From Campylobacter showae CSUNSWCD (GTDB lineage: Bacteria; Campylobacterota; Campylobacteria; Campylobacterales; Campylobacteraceae), in NCBI RefSeq assembly GCF_000313615.1, contig NZ_AMZQ01000010.1:58727-122726 (forward strand): a stretch of 64,000 nt of DNA, written 5' to 3'. The translations under genes were made by a program, and so were the position numbers. The notes below the pieces were generated by a model. The model did no database searches. It saw only the letters and a list, made by a program, of their open reading frames with translations, and was not told the origin of the DNA. Numbering within the stretch: the first letter of the stretch is position 1; every line of letters begins with the position of its first letter. Positions 49,595 through 53,919 of the stretch are shown piece by piece.

Positions 49595-50731
49595 TTAAAT
49601 TTTAGCTTTATTTATTGCCTGCTCCAAATCCGCGATCAAATCATCCGAATTTTCGATACCGACGGCAAGGCGTAGCAAACCTTGAGTAATGCCGATTTTA
49701 GCTTGTAAATCCTGCGAATAAGATTCATGAGTCATTGAGGCCGGATGGCAGATTAGACTCTCTACGCCGCCAAGGCTCACGGCTAGATCAAAAAGCTCCA
49801 AGCTTTTAGCAAAAATTTTATAGTCGTAGCCATCCTTTAGCTCCAGCGAGATTAGCGCGCCGATACCGCTAGCTTGGGCGTTTTGGATACGTTTTTCCTC
49901 GGCCGAAAATGAACCTGCGTAATACACGGCTTTAACGGCCGAGTTTTTTTCTAAAAATTCTACGATTTTTAGCGTATTTTCGCTTTGTCTATCAAATCTC
50001 ACGCTAAGAGTTTTGAGGCCTCTTATTAGATTATAAGCATCTGCAGGGCTTAGCGTCGCACCCAGAGTATTTTTCATAAAAGCTATACGCTCGGCTAGCG
50101 CATCGTCGTTCGTAGTCACGATTCCCGCAATTACGTCGGCATGTCCGCCGATATATTTCGTCGCACTATAAACGACGATATCGGCACCAAATTTTAGCGC
50201 TTTTTGATAATACGGCGTCAAAAAAGTATTATCGACGACGACAAGCGCGCCGTTTTTACGAGCTAGCTCGGCTAGTCTGGCGATATCCGTTACTCGCAGT
50301 AGCGGATTTGACGGCGTTTCGATAAATATCATCTTAACATCCTCGTCTAGACGAGAGATTTTATTTAGATCTTCGACGAGTTCAAATTTGATCCCGAAAT
50401 TTGCGAAAATACCGTTTGCGTAGCGGTAAGTGCCTCCGTAAACATTGCTGTTTAAAAGCACCTTGTCGCCGCTTTTTAGCAGGTTAAAAACCGCCGAGGT
50501 CGCCGCCATGCCCGAAGCTAGAGCAAATGCGTATTTGCTGTCTTCAAATTTAGCAAAAAGCTCTTCAAATGCATTTCTCGTCGGATTTGCGCTACGAGAA
50601 TAAGCGTACTTTTGAAAGTCGTCTAAACCGTCTTGCGCAAACGTCGTGGCAAGATAAATAGGCGGAACGACCGCGCCGTGAGGGTTGTTTTTGGCTTCGA
50701 GGCCTTTTACGATTAGCGTATCTATTTTCAT
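49595..50731 (-). CDS. metB: Cystathionine gamma-synthase/lyase-type PLP enzyme
   Basis: 378 residues of the Cys/Met-metabolism PLP family: YSRSANPTRNAFEE, ALASGMAA, FIETPSNPLLRV, and the PLP Lys in YSATKYIGGHADV. Sequence alone does not separate gamma-synthase (MetB) from gamma- or beta-lyase (MccB/MetC). It is the last gene of the operon that starts with the Cys-rich leader peptide and a cystine-type ABC transporter, so a lyase recycling imported cystine or cystathionine is as likely as MetB. The symbol is therefore provisional. Confidence 0.85.
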   Translation of the reverse strand: MKIDTLIVKGLEAKNNPHGAVVPPIYLATTFAQDGLDDFQKYAYSRSANPTRNAFEELFAKFEDSKYAFALASGMAATSAVFNLLKSGDKVLLNSNVYGGTYRYANGIFANFGIKFELVEDLNKISRLDEDVKMIFIETPSNPLLRVTDIARLAELARKNGALVVVDNTFLTPYYQKALKFGADIVVYSATKYIGGHADVIAGIVTTNDDALAERIAFMKNTLGATLSPADAYNLIRGLKTLSVRFDRQSENTLKIVEFLEKNSAVKAVYYAGSFSAEEKRIQNAQASGIGALISLELKDGYDYKIFAKSLELFDLAVSLGGVESLICHPASMTHESYSQDLQAKIGITQGLLRLAVGIENSDDLIADLEQAINKAKI

Positions 50732-50746: not shown

Positions 50747-51484
50747 TTAAAAATCCATCGCCGAGATAAATTTGACTATGCGCGGCGAATCGCTGCTGAA
50801 AAATTCCTCCGCCGTACCGTCAAATTCGATATTGCCGCGCTCTAAAAATAAGATTCTATCCGCGACTTTGCGGGCGAAGTTCATATTATGCGTGACGATG
50901 ATGAGCGAGTCGCGCTCCTTGCTAAGGCCGCCGATGACCTTCAAAACCTCGGCCTCAAGCTCCGGATCAAGCGCACTCGTGGGCTCGTCCAAAAGCAAAA
51001 AATACGGCTTCATCGCAAGTGCTCGCGCTATCGCCACCCGCTGCGATTGACCGCCCGAGAGCCTGCTTGGATACTCGTGCTCCTTACCCTTCAGTCCGAC
51101 CTTTTCAAGTAGCGCCAGGGCCTCAATTTCCGCCTGATCTTTCGGGATTTTAAGCACCTGCACGGGGCCTTCGGTTACATTTTGTAGAGCCGTTAGGTGT
51201 GGAAATAGATTAAAGCTCTGAAAGACCATCCCCGTGTGCTCGCGAAACGGTAGCATATCTTTTTTCGAAATTTTACCGGCGAAATTTATCTTATCGCCTC
51301 CAAGCTCAAGCTCGCCGCCGTCCGGGATCTCGAGTAAATTTATGCAACGCAGCAGGGTTGATTTACCCGAGCCCGAGCTTCCTAAAATAACCGTAGTCTC
51401 GCCGTCTTTAAATTCTAAATTTAAGCCGTTTAAAACAACGTTGTCTCCGAATTTCTTAGTCAAATTTTTAAATTTTATCATCAC
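50747..51484 (-). CDS. Polar amino-acid (cystine-type) ABC transporter ATPase
   Basis: 245 residues with Walker A GSSGSGKST, Q-loop VFQSFNLFPH, signature LSGGQSQRVAIAR, Walker B FLLLDEPTSALD and H-loop THN, characteristic of GlnQ/TcyC-type ATPases. It overlaps the permease gene by four bases and lies 15 bases before the PLP enzyme gene. In this context cystine or a related sulfur amino acid is the likely cargo (inference). Confidence 0.9.
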   Translation of the reverse strand: MMIKFKNLTKKFGDNVVLNGLNLEFKDGETTVILGSSGSGKSTLLRCINLLEIPDGGELELGGDKINFAGKISKKDMLPFREHTGMVFQSFNLFPHLTALQNVTEGPVQVLKIPKDQAEIEALALLEKVGLKGKEHEYPSRLSGGQSQRVAIARALAMKPYFLLLDEPTSALDPELEAEVLKVIGGLSKERDSLIIVTHNMNFARKVADRILFLERGNIEFDGTAEEFFSSDSPRIVKFISAMDF

Positions 51485-52149
51485 ACGTACCTTGAAAATC
51501 TCTTCTCGAGCCTAGCTTGCAGAAACGTCAAAAACGTGCAGACTATCAAGTAAAAAAGCGCGGCGAGCACGTAAAGCGTGAGCGGATCGAAGGTGCGCGC
51601 GGCGATGCGCTGAGCAACCATAAACATATCGACCATTGTGATAGAAGCCGCAAGCGAGGTGTCTTTTAGCGTGCTTATAAAGATATTTGAAAGCGGGGGT
51701 AGCGAGATACGCGCGGCTTGCGGAGCGATTATACGGCGTAAAATTTGCGCGTAGCTCATACCAAGCGCCGTAGCGGCTTCCCACTGGCCTTTGGGCACCG
51801 AAAGCACGGCCGCCCTAACGGCTTCGGAAGCGTAAGCGCCGATATTTAGGCTGAAAGTTATGATCGCCGCGCTCCAAACATCGAGCGTAATACCCACGAT
51901 CGGCAGACCGAAATATACGATAAAAAGCTGCACCAAAAGCGGCGTGCCGCGAAATATCCAGATATAAAATTCGCTAAGTTGCTTTAAAATTTTGATATTT
52001 GCTATGCGCGCGATCGCCGTTAGCACCGCGATGAGAAGCCCCAGCGAAAAGGAGATCGCCGTAAGAGGCAGCGTCACCTTTATCATCGCTAGCGCCATAG
52101 GTTGTAGCGAGCTTAGCAAAAGCTCGCTTATACGGTCAAATTCGTTCAT
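51481..52149 (-). CDS. Polar amino-acid (cystine-type) ABC transporter permease
   Basis: 222 residues, about five helices, with the HisM/GlnP family motifs FRGTPLLVQLFIVYFGLP and ALGMSYAQILRRIIAPQAAR (EAA loop contacting the ATPase). Probably works as a homodimer since only one permease gene is present. Six bases after the binding-protein gene, four-base overlap with the ATPase gene. Confidence 0.9.
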   Translation of the reverse strand: MNEFDRISELLLSSLQPMALAMIKVTLPLTAISFSLGLLIAVLTAIARIANIKILKQLSEFYIWIFRGTPLLVQLFIVYFGLPIVGITLDVWSAAIITFSLNIGAYASEAVRAAVLSVPKGQWEAATALGMSYAQILRRIIAPQAARISLPPLSNIFISTLKDTSLAASITMVDMFMVAQRIAARTFDPLTLYVLAALFYLIVCTFLTFLQARLEKRFSRYV

Positions 52150-52155
52150 CGCCCG

Positions 52156-52908
52156 TTACCGCGAGACATCTTTGCCGAAATACCTGATCGAAATTTCAGC
52201 CAGCTTGCCTTCGTTTTTTAGCTCCTCTATCGCCTTGCTGATCTGATCGGCAAGTTCCGTATTGCCCTTTTGCACGATAGGCGCGGTATAGTCGGTATCG
52301 CTTCCCTCGGCGGCTATTTTAACTGGAGCGCCCGGGCGCTGCTTGATGAAGTCGTAAAATACGATATTATCGCGCACGACGGTATCTACACGCTTGCTAA
52401 CGAGAAGCTCCATGCTCTTGCTAAAGCTATCGACCGTGACGTTTTGCGCCCCGTAGCTAGCGGCCACCTTTGCCCAGTTGCTGGTAGCGGAGTCGGCGTT
52501 TTTCTTACCTTTTAGATCATCAAAGCTTTTGATATCGTCGTTATCTTTATGAGTGATGATGGCGCCGTGCACGACGGTGTAGGGCTGTGCGTAATCATAT
52601 TTTTTCTTGCGTTCGTCAGTAACGCTTACTTGATTAAATACCGCATCGGCCTTGCCCGCATCAAATGCCGCGAGCATCGCGTCCCACGGAGCGGTTAGGA
52701 ATTCGATCTTTAAATTTAACTTCTTAGCGACTTCACGAGCGATATCAACGTCGTAGCCCTTTAGCTCGTTTTTATCGTCATAATATGAAAACGGCGCGTA
52801 AGTACCTTCCGTAGCAATCGTTAAAACGCCCTCTTTTATGGTTTTGGCGTTTAAATTTAGCGTCAAAAATGCGCCCAGAGCCAAAATTTTTAGTAGTTTT
52901 GAAACCAT
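52156..52908 (-). CDS. Amino-acid ABC transporter binding protein 2 (cystine-type)
   Basis: 250 residues with a signal peptide (about 1-21, ending LNAKT). SBP_bac_3 fold: TEGTYAPFSYYDDKNELKG, YDVDIAREVAKKL and VFNQVSVTDERKKKYDYAQPY. A paralogue of the gene at 52950, with the same segments and nearly the same length. Differences cluster at VVHGAIITHKDN and SKRVDTVVRDN, close to the ligand pocket, so the two may bind different sulfur amino acids while sharing one permease. Confidence 0.9.
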   Translation of the reverse strand: MVSKLLKILALGAFLTLNLNAKTIKEGVLTIATEGTYAPFSYYDDKNELKGYDVDIAREVAKKLNLKIEFLTAPWDAMLAAFDAGKADAVFNQVSVTDERKKKYDYAQPYTVVHGAIITHKDNDDIKSFDDLKGKKNADSATSNWAKVAASYGAQNVTVDSFSKSMELLVSKRVDTVVRDNIVFYDFIKQRPGAPVKIAAEGSDTDYTAPIVQKGNTELADQISKAIEELKNEGKLAEISIRYFGKDVSR

Positions 52909-52949: not shown

Positions 52950-53708
52950 TTACTCCGAGATATCTTTACCGAAGTATTTGACCGAAATCTCTTTTAGCTT
53001 GCCTTCGCTTTTTAGCTCACCAAGAGCTTTGTTTACGTCGTTTACTAGCTCTTCGTTGCCCTTTTTCACGATGGCTGCGGAGTAGATCGGCTCGCTACCG
53101 CTAGCGGCTATTTTTAAAGGGGCGTTTGGACGCTGATTTATGTAATCATAGAAGGTCACGCTGTCGTTTATCGTTGCATCCGCACGGCGGCTGATGATGA
53201 GCTCCACCCCTTTACTAAAGCCGTCTACGGTGACTATCTGCGCGCCGTATTTTTGCGCGATGCCGGCCCAGTTGCTAGTCGCCGAATGCGCGCTTTTTTT
53301 GCCTTTTAGATCCTCGAAGCTTTTGATTTCATTATTGTCTTTATGAGTGACTAGCGCGGCATAGGCGACGGTGTATGGAACGGTGTAATCGTATTTTTTC
53401 TTACGCTCGTCCGTGATGCTTACTTGATTAAACACGATATCGGTCTTGCCCGCATCAAATGCCGCAAGCATCGCATCCCACGGAGCTTCGACGAATTCCG
53501 CTTTTAAATTTAACTTTTTAGCGACTTCGCGTGCCACTTCTACGTCGTAGCCCGTTAGCGCGTCGTTTTTGTCATGGTATGAGTAGGGCGAATACGTGCC
53601 TTCGGTCGCGATTTTCAAAACGCCGTTTTCGAGAGTTTTTGCATTTGCACCGGTTAAAAGAGCGAAGCTCGCCAAAGCAAGCAGAGAAGATTTTAGTAGT
53701 TTTTTCAT
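52950..53708 (-). CDS. Amino-acid ABC transporter binding protein 1 (cystine-type, FliY/TcyA-like)
   Basis: 252 residues with a signal peptide (about 1-23, ending GANA). Same SBP_bac_3 segments as the neighbour: EGTYSPYSYHDKNDALTGYD, FVEAPWDAMLAAFDAGK and FNQVSITDERKKKYDY. It is the first full gene after the Cys-rich leader. AAAGGAC precedes the ATG. Cystine specificity is inferred from family likeness, the PLP enzyme in the operon and the leader. Confidence 0.9.
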   Translation of the reverse strand: MKKLLKSSLLALASFALLTGANAKTLENGVLKIATEGTYSPYSYHDKNDALTGYDVEVAREVAKKLNLKAEFVEAPWDAMLAAFDAGKTDIVFNQVSITDERKKKYDYTVPYTVAYAALVTHKDNNEIKSFEDLKGKKSAHSATSNWAGIAQKYGAQIVTVDGFSKGVELIISRRADATINDSVTFYDYINQRPNAPLKIAASGSEPIYSAAIVKKGNEELVNDVNKALGELKSEGKLKEISVKYFGKDISE

Positions 53709-53835
53709 TTTTTGTCCTTTTTAAATTTATCGTTGGCTATTCATCTAAAAAGGCCCGCGAGTGCGGAGTTGAAAATATCTTTTTAAATGTTTAGCGACTT
53801 GCTAAGCACTTAAAAAGATATTCGTGCCTAGCGCC
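53709..53835 (-). promoter_or_regulatory. Attenuator-like leader between the Cys-rich peptide and the transporter
   Basis: On the minus strand the peptide stop is followed by a 13-bp perfect stem (AATATCTTTTTAA at 53810-53822 with its complement at 53774-53786). It is closed inside by TTAGC/GCTAA (53801-53805, 53791-53795). A GC-rich stem TCCGC-ACTC-GCGGG follows (53763-53767 with 53754-53758), and two bases later comes TTTTT (53747-53751), a terminator form. TTGCGA at the end of the Cys codons can pair with TCGCTAA in the long hairpin with one bulge, giving an alternative fold. Confidence 0.55.
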
Positions 53836-53883
53836 CTAGCTTTTCATTTCGCAACAACACATGTCGCACATATCGTTTTTCAT
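53836..53883 (-). CDS. 15-residue Cys/Met-rich leader peptide of the cystine-transport operon
   Basis: The frame reads MKNDMCDMCCCEMKS and a TAG stop. Four of 15 codons are Cys, three of them consecutive, and four are Met. AAAGG lies seven bases before the ATG. A candidate -10 box is just upstream, and hairpins plus the transporter operon follow. The arrangement matches amino-acid attenuation leaders: a ribosome stalled at Cys codons under cysteine limitation would change folding of the downstream RNA. Poly-Cys attenuating ORFs are known in mycobacteria. I know of no described case in Campylobacter, but cannot search. The peptide could alternatively bind metal. Confidence 0.6.
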   Translation of the reverse strand: MKNDMCDMCCCEMKS

Positions 53884-53913
53884 AGCGTACCTTTCGAGTA
53901 AAATTTGGCGGTA

Positions 53914-53919
53914 ATTTTA
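53914..53919 (-). promoter_or_regulatory. Candidate promoter -10 of the leader-cystine transport operon
   Basis: Minus-strand TTTTTTTGCATAAAAT gives an extended -10 (TAAAAT) preceded by a T-run and TG, the usual Campylobacter vegetative pattern. Transcription would begin about 20-25 bases before the leader ATG. Confidence 0.45.

Follow-up and report, generated by a model that had tools for sequence, protein, structure and literature searches.

A Cys- and Met-rich leader frame with alternating RNA arms ahead of a cystine-type uptake operon in Campylobacter: a probable translational attenuator

A short Cys-rich reading frame lies ahead of a putative cystine-uptake operon in the stretch of DNA analysed here (the window; 64,000 nt from Campylobacter showae CSUNSWCD), which raises the question of whether this frame encodes the leader peptide of an attenuator and, if so, which amino acids it would report on and whether its output would be transcription termination or translation initiation. 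The original prediction, made from the sequence alone, described a promoter-like box, a ribosome site, a 15-codon Cys frame, a stop codon, a 13-bp hairpin with an inner stem, and a GC-rich stem followed by TTTTT; all of these are present, on the minus strand.

The leader frame and the operon behind it

The leader frame MKNDMCDMCCCEMKS runs from ATG to TAG at 53883-53836 (-) and was assigned from the sequence and from its conservation, codon by codon, among homologues. It is preceded by a Shine-Dalgarno (SD) sequence, GAAAGG, at 53895-53890 (-), and by a -10-like promoter region, TTTTTTTGCATAAAAT, at 53929-53914 (-), which was recognized by eye and is absent from the list of the consensus scan. 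Its 15 codons include 4 Cys (with the spacing CxxCCC) and 4 Met codons; four codons (E M K S) separate the Cys run from the stop, and 127 nt separate the leader TAG from the ATG of the first binding-protein gene at 53708. As in amino-acid leader-peptide attenuators, the frame is short, SD-led and rich in codons for amino acids of the pathway behind it.

The genes that had been named as following in the same direction, i.e., two binding proteins, a permease, an ATPase and a cystathionine-type enzyme, were confirmed. Substrate-binding protein (SBP) 1 (SBP_bac_3; 52950..53708), SBP 2 (52156..52908), the ABC permease (51481..52149) and the ABC ATPase (50747..51484), all on the minus strand, had as best NCBIfam matches cystine SBP (for both binding proteins), cystine permease and L-cystine ATPase TcyN, respectively, each below the cutoff; the NCBIfam matches shown for the fifth gene, encoding a Cys/Met-metabolism PLP enzyme of the cystathionine gamma-synthase/lyase type (49595..50731 (-)), were likewise below the cutoff. 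Pfam was run on SBP 1 and the PLP enzyme. Among PDB sequences, 2yln (E 4.7e-63), a Neisseria cystine receptor, matched SBP 1 best. A further SBP homologue (62% identity) in the genome of the window, at G000:C1:155024-155755, has one in-frame TAG in the match and may be decayed.

Among the 16 SD-led ATG frames of 8 to 30 amino acids in the window, at least three Cys were found in the leader frame alone; in 20 mononucleotide shuffles of the window, frames with at least four Cys or a CCC run occurred with a mean of 0.25. The Cys-rich frame by itself is not beyond chance, and the evidence thus lies in its conservation in relatives. The 211-nt region containing the frame folds better than 200 of 200 dinucleotide shuffles (z -3.30).

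Distribution of the element among relatives

We compared the regions upstream of the best SBP match (1500 nt each) for 30 of the 48 genomes of the window's genus (g1) and found the leader in 5; in some of the loci classed as leaderless the match was not first in its cluster, and the operon start may be beyond 1500 nt. The cystine-operon leader encodes the same peptide in the window's genome (G000), G039, G035 and G040, and MKNDMCDMCCKVKV in G016. A candidate in L010, MSNRSKKCC, was set aside by eye, as it is apparently coding sequence of the upstream gene. A DNA search of 153 family genomes found the same element 5' of metQ-type genes across the window's genus; two of the metQ-type proteins were checked and are NlpA lipoproteins (PF03180). 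With a covariance model built from 31 sequences, the element was detected in 54 of the 153 family genomes, i.e., 47 of 48 in g1, 5 of 14 in g3 and 2 of 2 in g6. The 47 g1 genomes each carry a metQ copy, and five of them also carry a cystine-operon copy; the covariance model, too, limited the second copy to those 5 genomes. Among 398 genomes sampled from the order, the same model gave 19 matches at E <= 0.001, all in g1 or g6, under strict filters by which weak matches are lost. A contig scan for the core pattern with Asp or Glu at codon 7, which excludes forms with His or Gln and may omit records near the window's genome, returned 7 stretches, all from Campylobacter.

Leaders were also sought upstream of metQ in 40 further genomes (6 g2, 9 g3, 16 g4, 2 g5, 2 g6, 1 g7, 1 g8, 2 g9 and 1 g11). 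Met- or Met/Cys-rich leader candidates were found in 2 g6, 7 g4 and 2 g5 genomes, using a filter on an SD-like motif and on Met/Cys richness, from which weaker leaders can escape. The MMxQM leader pattern of g4 occurred in 17 of 49 genomes, representing 14 distinct leader regions. Three minor observations concern these further loci. One unrelated-looking frame upstream of metQ in G080 passed the filter. The MMMQMR candidates of g5 (L133, L134) precede an ABC ATPase-like frame rather than metQ. The g4 metQ leaders (L163-L179) share a strongly conserved GCAAGCA-like block, located between arms B' and C', for which three-arm pairing gives no explanation.

For the comparisons that follow, 59 loci had a leader frame from similarity and protein matches, and 57 (56 distinct sequences) were kept; two loci of genus g6, for which the script found no downstream start in its range, were analysed apart. 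L107 and L108 were handled separately. L039, which shares a contig with L090, and the weak matches L087 and L088, which have no Cys frame, were omitted, and L180, a pattern match, failed the leader filter. An AAGG motif lies within 15 nt 5' of the leader ATG in all 56 distinct homologues. The comparison with relatives that had been proposed as a check supported part of the prediction: the leader frame is conserved (Cys6 in 55 of 56), as are the arms, whose pairing survives two-sided changes.

Alternating RNA arms and the predicted output

Five arms follow the leader stop codon on the minus strand. Arm A (GCTAGGCAC; 53824..53832) lies 3 nt past the stop codon; arm B (AATATCTTTTTAAGTGCTTAGC; 53801..53822) can pair through its 3' half with A, or along its entire length with arm C (GCTAAACATTTAAAAAGATATT; 53774..53795); C can pair with B or with arm D (CCTTTTTAGATGAATAGC; 53736..53753), an anti-SD; and D can pair with C or with arm E (TTTAAAAAGG; 53716..53725), which holds the SD of the first structural gene. 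The 13-bp perfect stem and its inner 5-bp stem lie within 53822-53774, and C:D of the window copy has two A-A mismatches. The pairings A:B and C:D are mutually exclusive with B:C and D:E, and the SD is buried by the second set only. The element thus contains, as attenuators do, mutually exclusive RNA arms that are positioned by the location of the ribosome.

Pairing was assessed on the aligned rows (A1, 33 of 56, and A2, 31 of 56 distinct sequences). Among 33 of the 56 distinct sequences, 99.3% of cells were paired for A:B, 96.1% for B:C and 90.8% for C:D, and cells with two-sided changes were more numerous than in shuffles for A:B (19 vs. 4.1; 0/500), B:C (9 vs. 4.2; 0/500) and C:D (21 vs. 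8.5; 0/500), where the shuffles ignore the relatedness of the sequences. The number of pairs with a two-sided change was above shuffles for C:D (11/500) and not above shuffles for A:B (2 vs. 1.6; 311/500) and B:C (3 vs. 2.4; 259/500). Versions of the arm pairings slid out of register were far less paired than the true register, and swapping partners between sequences weakened A:B from -13.4 to -11.0 kcal/mol (33 distinct pairs) and C:D from -12.2 to -8.9 kcal/mol (43 distinct pairs). Between the two copies in the window's genome, bases at paired positions differ without loss of pairing (for A and B, GGCAC with GTGCTT vs. AGCGC with GCGCTT). In L044 (G067), the metQ frame is short (171 aa vs. 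about 257 aa elsewhere) and A:B is interrupted. As the alignment is offset at D:E, this pairing was scored by duplexes for each sequence; in 54 of 56, the sequence's own D gave a better duplex than mononucleotide-shuffled versions of D did on average. Of 34 genes in the window, 3 have an upstream duplex of equal or greater strength; D:E is unexceptional for the genome and, taken alone, weak evidence.

A switch that is read by a terminating as opposed to a stalled ribosome requires a fixed geometry between the stop codon and arm A, and such a geometry was observed. The leader varies from 12 to 21 codons, yet the distance from stop codon to B is 14 to 19 nt in 54 of 56 distinct sequences; in the two exceptions (L045 and L046), a change in the usual stop extends the frame by two codons. 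With the ribosome edge set 15 nt past the first P-site base, a ribosome at the last Cys or Met codon would leave A wholly free in 55 of 56, and one that has reached the leader stop would cover half of A or more in 56 of 56.

We then compared the predicted exposure of the SD under two static, imposed states (A masked vs. A:B held; ViennaRNA). Across the 56 distinct sequences, the mean probability that the SD is unpaired was 0.05 with A masked, 0.71 with A:B held and 0.16 unconstrained; for the window copy these values were 0.25, 0.58 and 0.20, respectively. From the masked to the held state, predicted exposure rose by more than 0.3 in 52 of 56 and fell by more than 0.3 in none; by the printed values, L035, L049, L083 and L086 were below this rise, and L051 and L089 were borderline. 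L035, the other clearly different cystine-operon copy, went from 0.03 to 0.24. In L084 and L086, a second small frame (with FINSVLN) seems to precede metQ, with its SD and ATG in arm C. As in translational attenuators, one imposed state is predicted to bury the SD and the other to leave it accessible. Against this reading, the ribosome-free equilibrium is predicted to be mostly closed (mean 0.16), so the ON state would have to be kinetic.

The same predicted polarity was found in leaders of different build. In g6, a three-arm form (MKSDMSDMYEMCRCLAMRCRKIF or a variant ending in KTF) has the SD inside C and an A:B stem of 13 bp, and the predicted SD unpaired probability rose from 0.00 to 0.70 (2 loci). 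In the C. jejuni-type metQ leaders of g4, whose arms are unrelated in sequence to those of the window family, it rose from a mean of 0.20 to 0.86 (14 distinct), with exposure almost flat in L176 (0.57 to 0.62).

Judged by sequence and predicted structure, the element probably controls the uptake of sulfur amino acids as a leader-peptide translational attenuator. Ribosomes would start on the leader during its transcription. When Cys-tRNA and/or Met-tRNA is plentiful, the ribosome would reach the stop codon and cover arm A, whereupon B:C would form and D, left unpaired, could bind E and so hide the SD of the first binding-protein gene (OFF). When the ribosome stalls at Cys or Met codons, A would be free to pair with B, C would take D, and the SD would be exposed (ON). 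What the DNA shows directly is the five arms, which of their pairings exclude each other, how far the arms are conserved and where they lie with respect to the stop codon; translation of the leader, stalling on uncharged tRNA, the direction of regulation in the cell and Cys specificity are inferred. If true, Campylobacter would sense methionine or cysteine supply genus-wide at the level of translation initiation.

Both halves of this mechanism have counterparts in known attenuators. In translational attenuators of the ermC/cat type, which sense antibiotics, a stalled leader ribosome frees a sequestered SD. The element resembles them in that a stalled ribosome would free the SD, and differs in that the terminating ribosome would cover A and amino acid supply would be the signal. 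The his and trp attenuators use several alternately pairing arms, a ribosome at the stop that covers a key arm, and an intrinsic terminator as output. Alternating arms and a stop-positioned ribosome are shared with the element studied here, whose output would be the SD instead of an intrinsic terminator.

The original prediction had implied a terminator as the output, namely the GC-rich 5-pair stem followed by CCTTTTT (53752..53768 (-), stem at 53767-53754). Under classical trp/leu-type transcription attenuation, this stem and T-run would act as an intrinsic terminator that is antiterminated when the ribosome stalls. The stem and T-run are found in the window copy and in 4 of the 5 cystine-operon copies, those four being near-identical, and termination was proposed in 2013 for C. 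jejuni LeuL, TrpL and MetL (PMC3847290). On the other hand, a terminator-like stem between arm C and the start codon is present in only 5 of 56 distinct sequences (one metQ copy besides the four near-identical copies at cystine operons) and is missing from L035, the only clearly different cystine-operon copy, whose alignment with the window copy shows conservation of blocks A, B, C, D and E and not of the GC-rich stem. The stem of the window copy has 5 pairs only, and its T-run is arm D, which is able to pair with the SD. Moreover, hiding of the SD is predicted throughout the family, as well as in the g4 and g6 forms with their different build. An intrinsic terminator as the family-wide output was rejected on the count of 5 in 56, since the terminator is not conserved as it is in trp-type attenuators. 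The output arm that is conserved is the one pairing with the first gene's SD, and the terminator stem is rare; translational rather than transcription attenuation is thus indicated, and we consider the latter unlikely; in the clade of the window, mixed control that includes its terminator-like stem is possible. Of the attenuator initially proposed for the cystine operon, the conserved Cys leader with switching hairpins was retained, and the terminator did not hold as the output of the family.

Leader codons and the amino acids that may be sensed

Among the leader codons, Met5 and Met8 are present in every one of the 56 distinct sequences and Cys6 in 55; K2, S3 and D4 are found in 54, 49 and 55, respectively, and codon 7 is E, D, H or Q in all 56. 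Codons 2 to 6 show little synonymous variation, so that a constraint at the level of bases is possible. The cystine-operon copies have 4, 4, 4, 4 and 3 Cys per leader, and the 51 distinct metQ copies have 1 (n = 11), 2 (n = 34) or 3 (n = 6). Cysteine sensing, as first suggested, agrees with the Cys codons; since the window leader has as many Met as Cys codons (4 of each), and since the family otherwise stands at metQ-type genes, sensing of cysteine only is too narrow a reading. Codon content and geometry point to sensing of charged tRNA, and the extra Cys codons would tune the window copy to cysteine.

A different use of the same RNA switch would be nascent-peptide arrest, in which the conserved MKSDMC-x-M peptide stalls the ribosome on a ligand (cysteine, methionine, SAM or other). 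The near fixation of residues other than Cys and Met (K2, S3, D4) is in line with such arrest; against it, the C. jejuni-type leaders (MMSQMR etc.) have the same RNA logic and lack the motif, all five cystine-operon copies have Asn at codon 3, and the constraint may be on bases. We regard arrest as having a slim chance of being correct. That the small protein itself is functional, e.g., as a metal- or thiol-binding Cys/Met peptide with the RNA hairpin incidental, is very improbable; the CxxCCC spacing would suit it, but the stop keeps its place at arm A in leaders that differ in length (12 to 21 residues), C-terminus and Cys content (1 to 4). A riboswitch for a metabolite, or a T-box, that overlaps a small ORF is hardly credible despite the strong conserved hairpins, as the anchoring to the stop codon points to the ribosome, and Rfam 15 gave 0 families at gathering score in the window, with matches far below gathering scores only when the region and four relatives were searched at open threshold.

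The proposed charged-tRNA sensing at a translational switch was compared with leaders reported previously. The original prediction knew of no poly-Cys leader in epsilonproteobacteria; in the open-licence literature we found neither a Cys-run leader nor an SD-sequestering metQ leader for Campylobacter, and the context has to be corrected to include C. jejuni LeuL, TrpL, MetL and CJsORF19 (PMC3847290 and PMC11955535). LeuL, TrpL and MetL, predicted in C. jejuni with transcription termination proposed, come from the same bacterial family as the window leader and, like it, carry codons relevant to the amino acid genes behind them; they differ in preceding biosynthetic genes, MetL standing before metBA and not before a transporter, and in the proposed termination (PMC3847290). 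Initiation-site profiling supports all three and suggested CJsORF19 as the leader of Cj0772c (PMC11955535). CJsORF19 (MMYQMR, upstream of Cj0772c) is alike in being a Met-codon leader before a D-methionine-type binding-protein gene, and is described as a potential leader, with no RNA mechanism given in the part of PMC11955535 that was available. Its peptide is encoded in L170 and L172 of the sister group g4, and the polarity predicted there from arms A', B' and C' matches that of the window family; it has no Cys, its arm sequences are unrelated, and it is not at a cystine operon. Rfam searches of two g4 loci (L170 and L175) gave no match above chance. If true, the proposal would provide a concrete RNA mechanism for this orphan C. 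jejuni leader. For metQ, the available part of PMC11774046 covers the operon and predictions of sRNAs, without a leader mechanism.

In actinobacteria, Cys-rich upstream frames have been reported in which runs of Cys codons precede genes of Cys metabolism (PMC1262725 and PMC4633059). As far as the available text of these papers goes, the frames of the 2005 paper have no conserved terminator hairpins and have Cys runs near the stop (PMC1262725), and several frames of the 2015 paper are on leaderless mRNAs (PMC4633059). The window leader, in contrast, has conserved arms and precedes an uptake operon, and neither a position before cys biosynthesis genes nor a Cys run beside the stop was found.

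The five cystine-operon copies group together (FastTree support 0.993, unrooted). The metQ copy of G016 groups with other species and its cystine-operon copy with the C. showae-type copies; its operon (L159, G016:C1:1676000-1688500) has the order leader, SBP, permease, ATPase and PLP enzyme, without SBP 2. Between G016 and G039 the upstream gene differs and the gene beyond the PLP enzyme looks alike; either transfer or common descent may account for this. The higher Cys count at cystine operons reflects few independent events. It is conceivable, though doubtful, that a leader-RNA module for methionine uptake was copied to the cystine operon and re-tuned by Cys codons, with the fixed MKxDMCxM core read as nascent peptide and not as codons only. 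If this copied-module reading were true, changes to a few leader codons could give this translational, amino-acid-sensing switch another ligand. The paired copies in the window's genome, with 1 Cys in the metQ leader (L061) and 4 Cys in the cystine-operon leader, would be a natural experiment on a change of attenuator specificity. The two kinds of copy also differ at the 3' end of the leader, where metQ copies with an SSKD or LSKD tail (e.g., L061) have a conserved GTCGAAAGAC-type segment before the stop that could form a small stem and that is missing from the cystine-operon copies.
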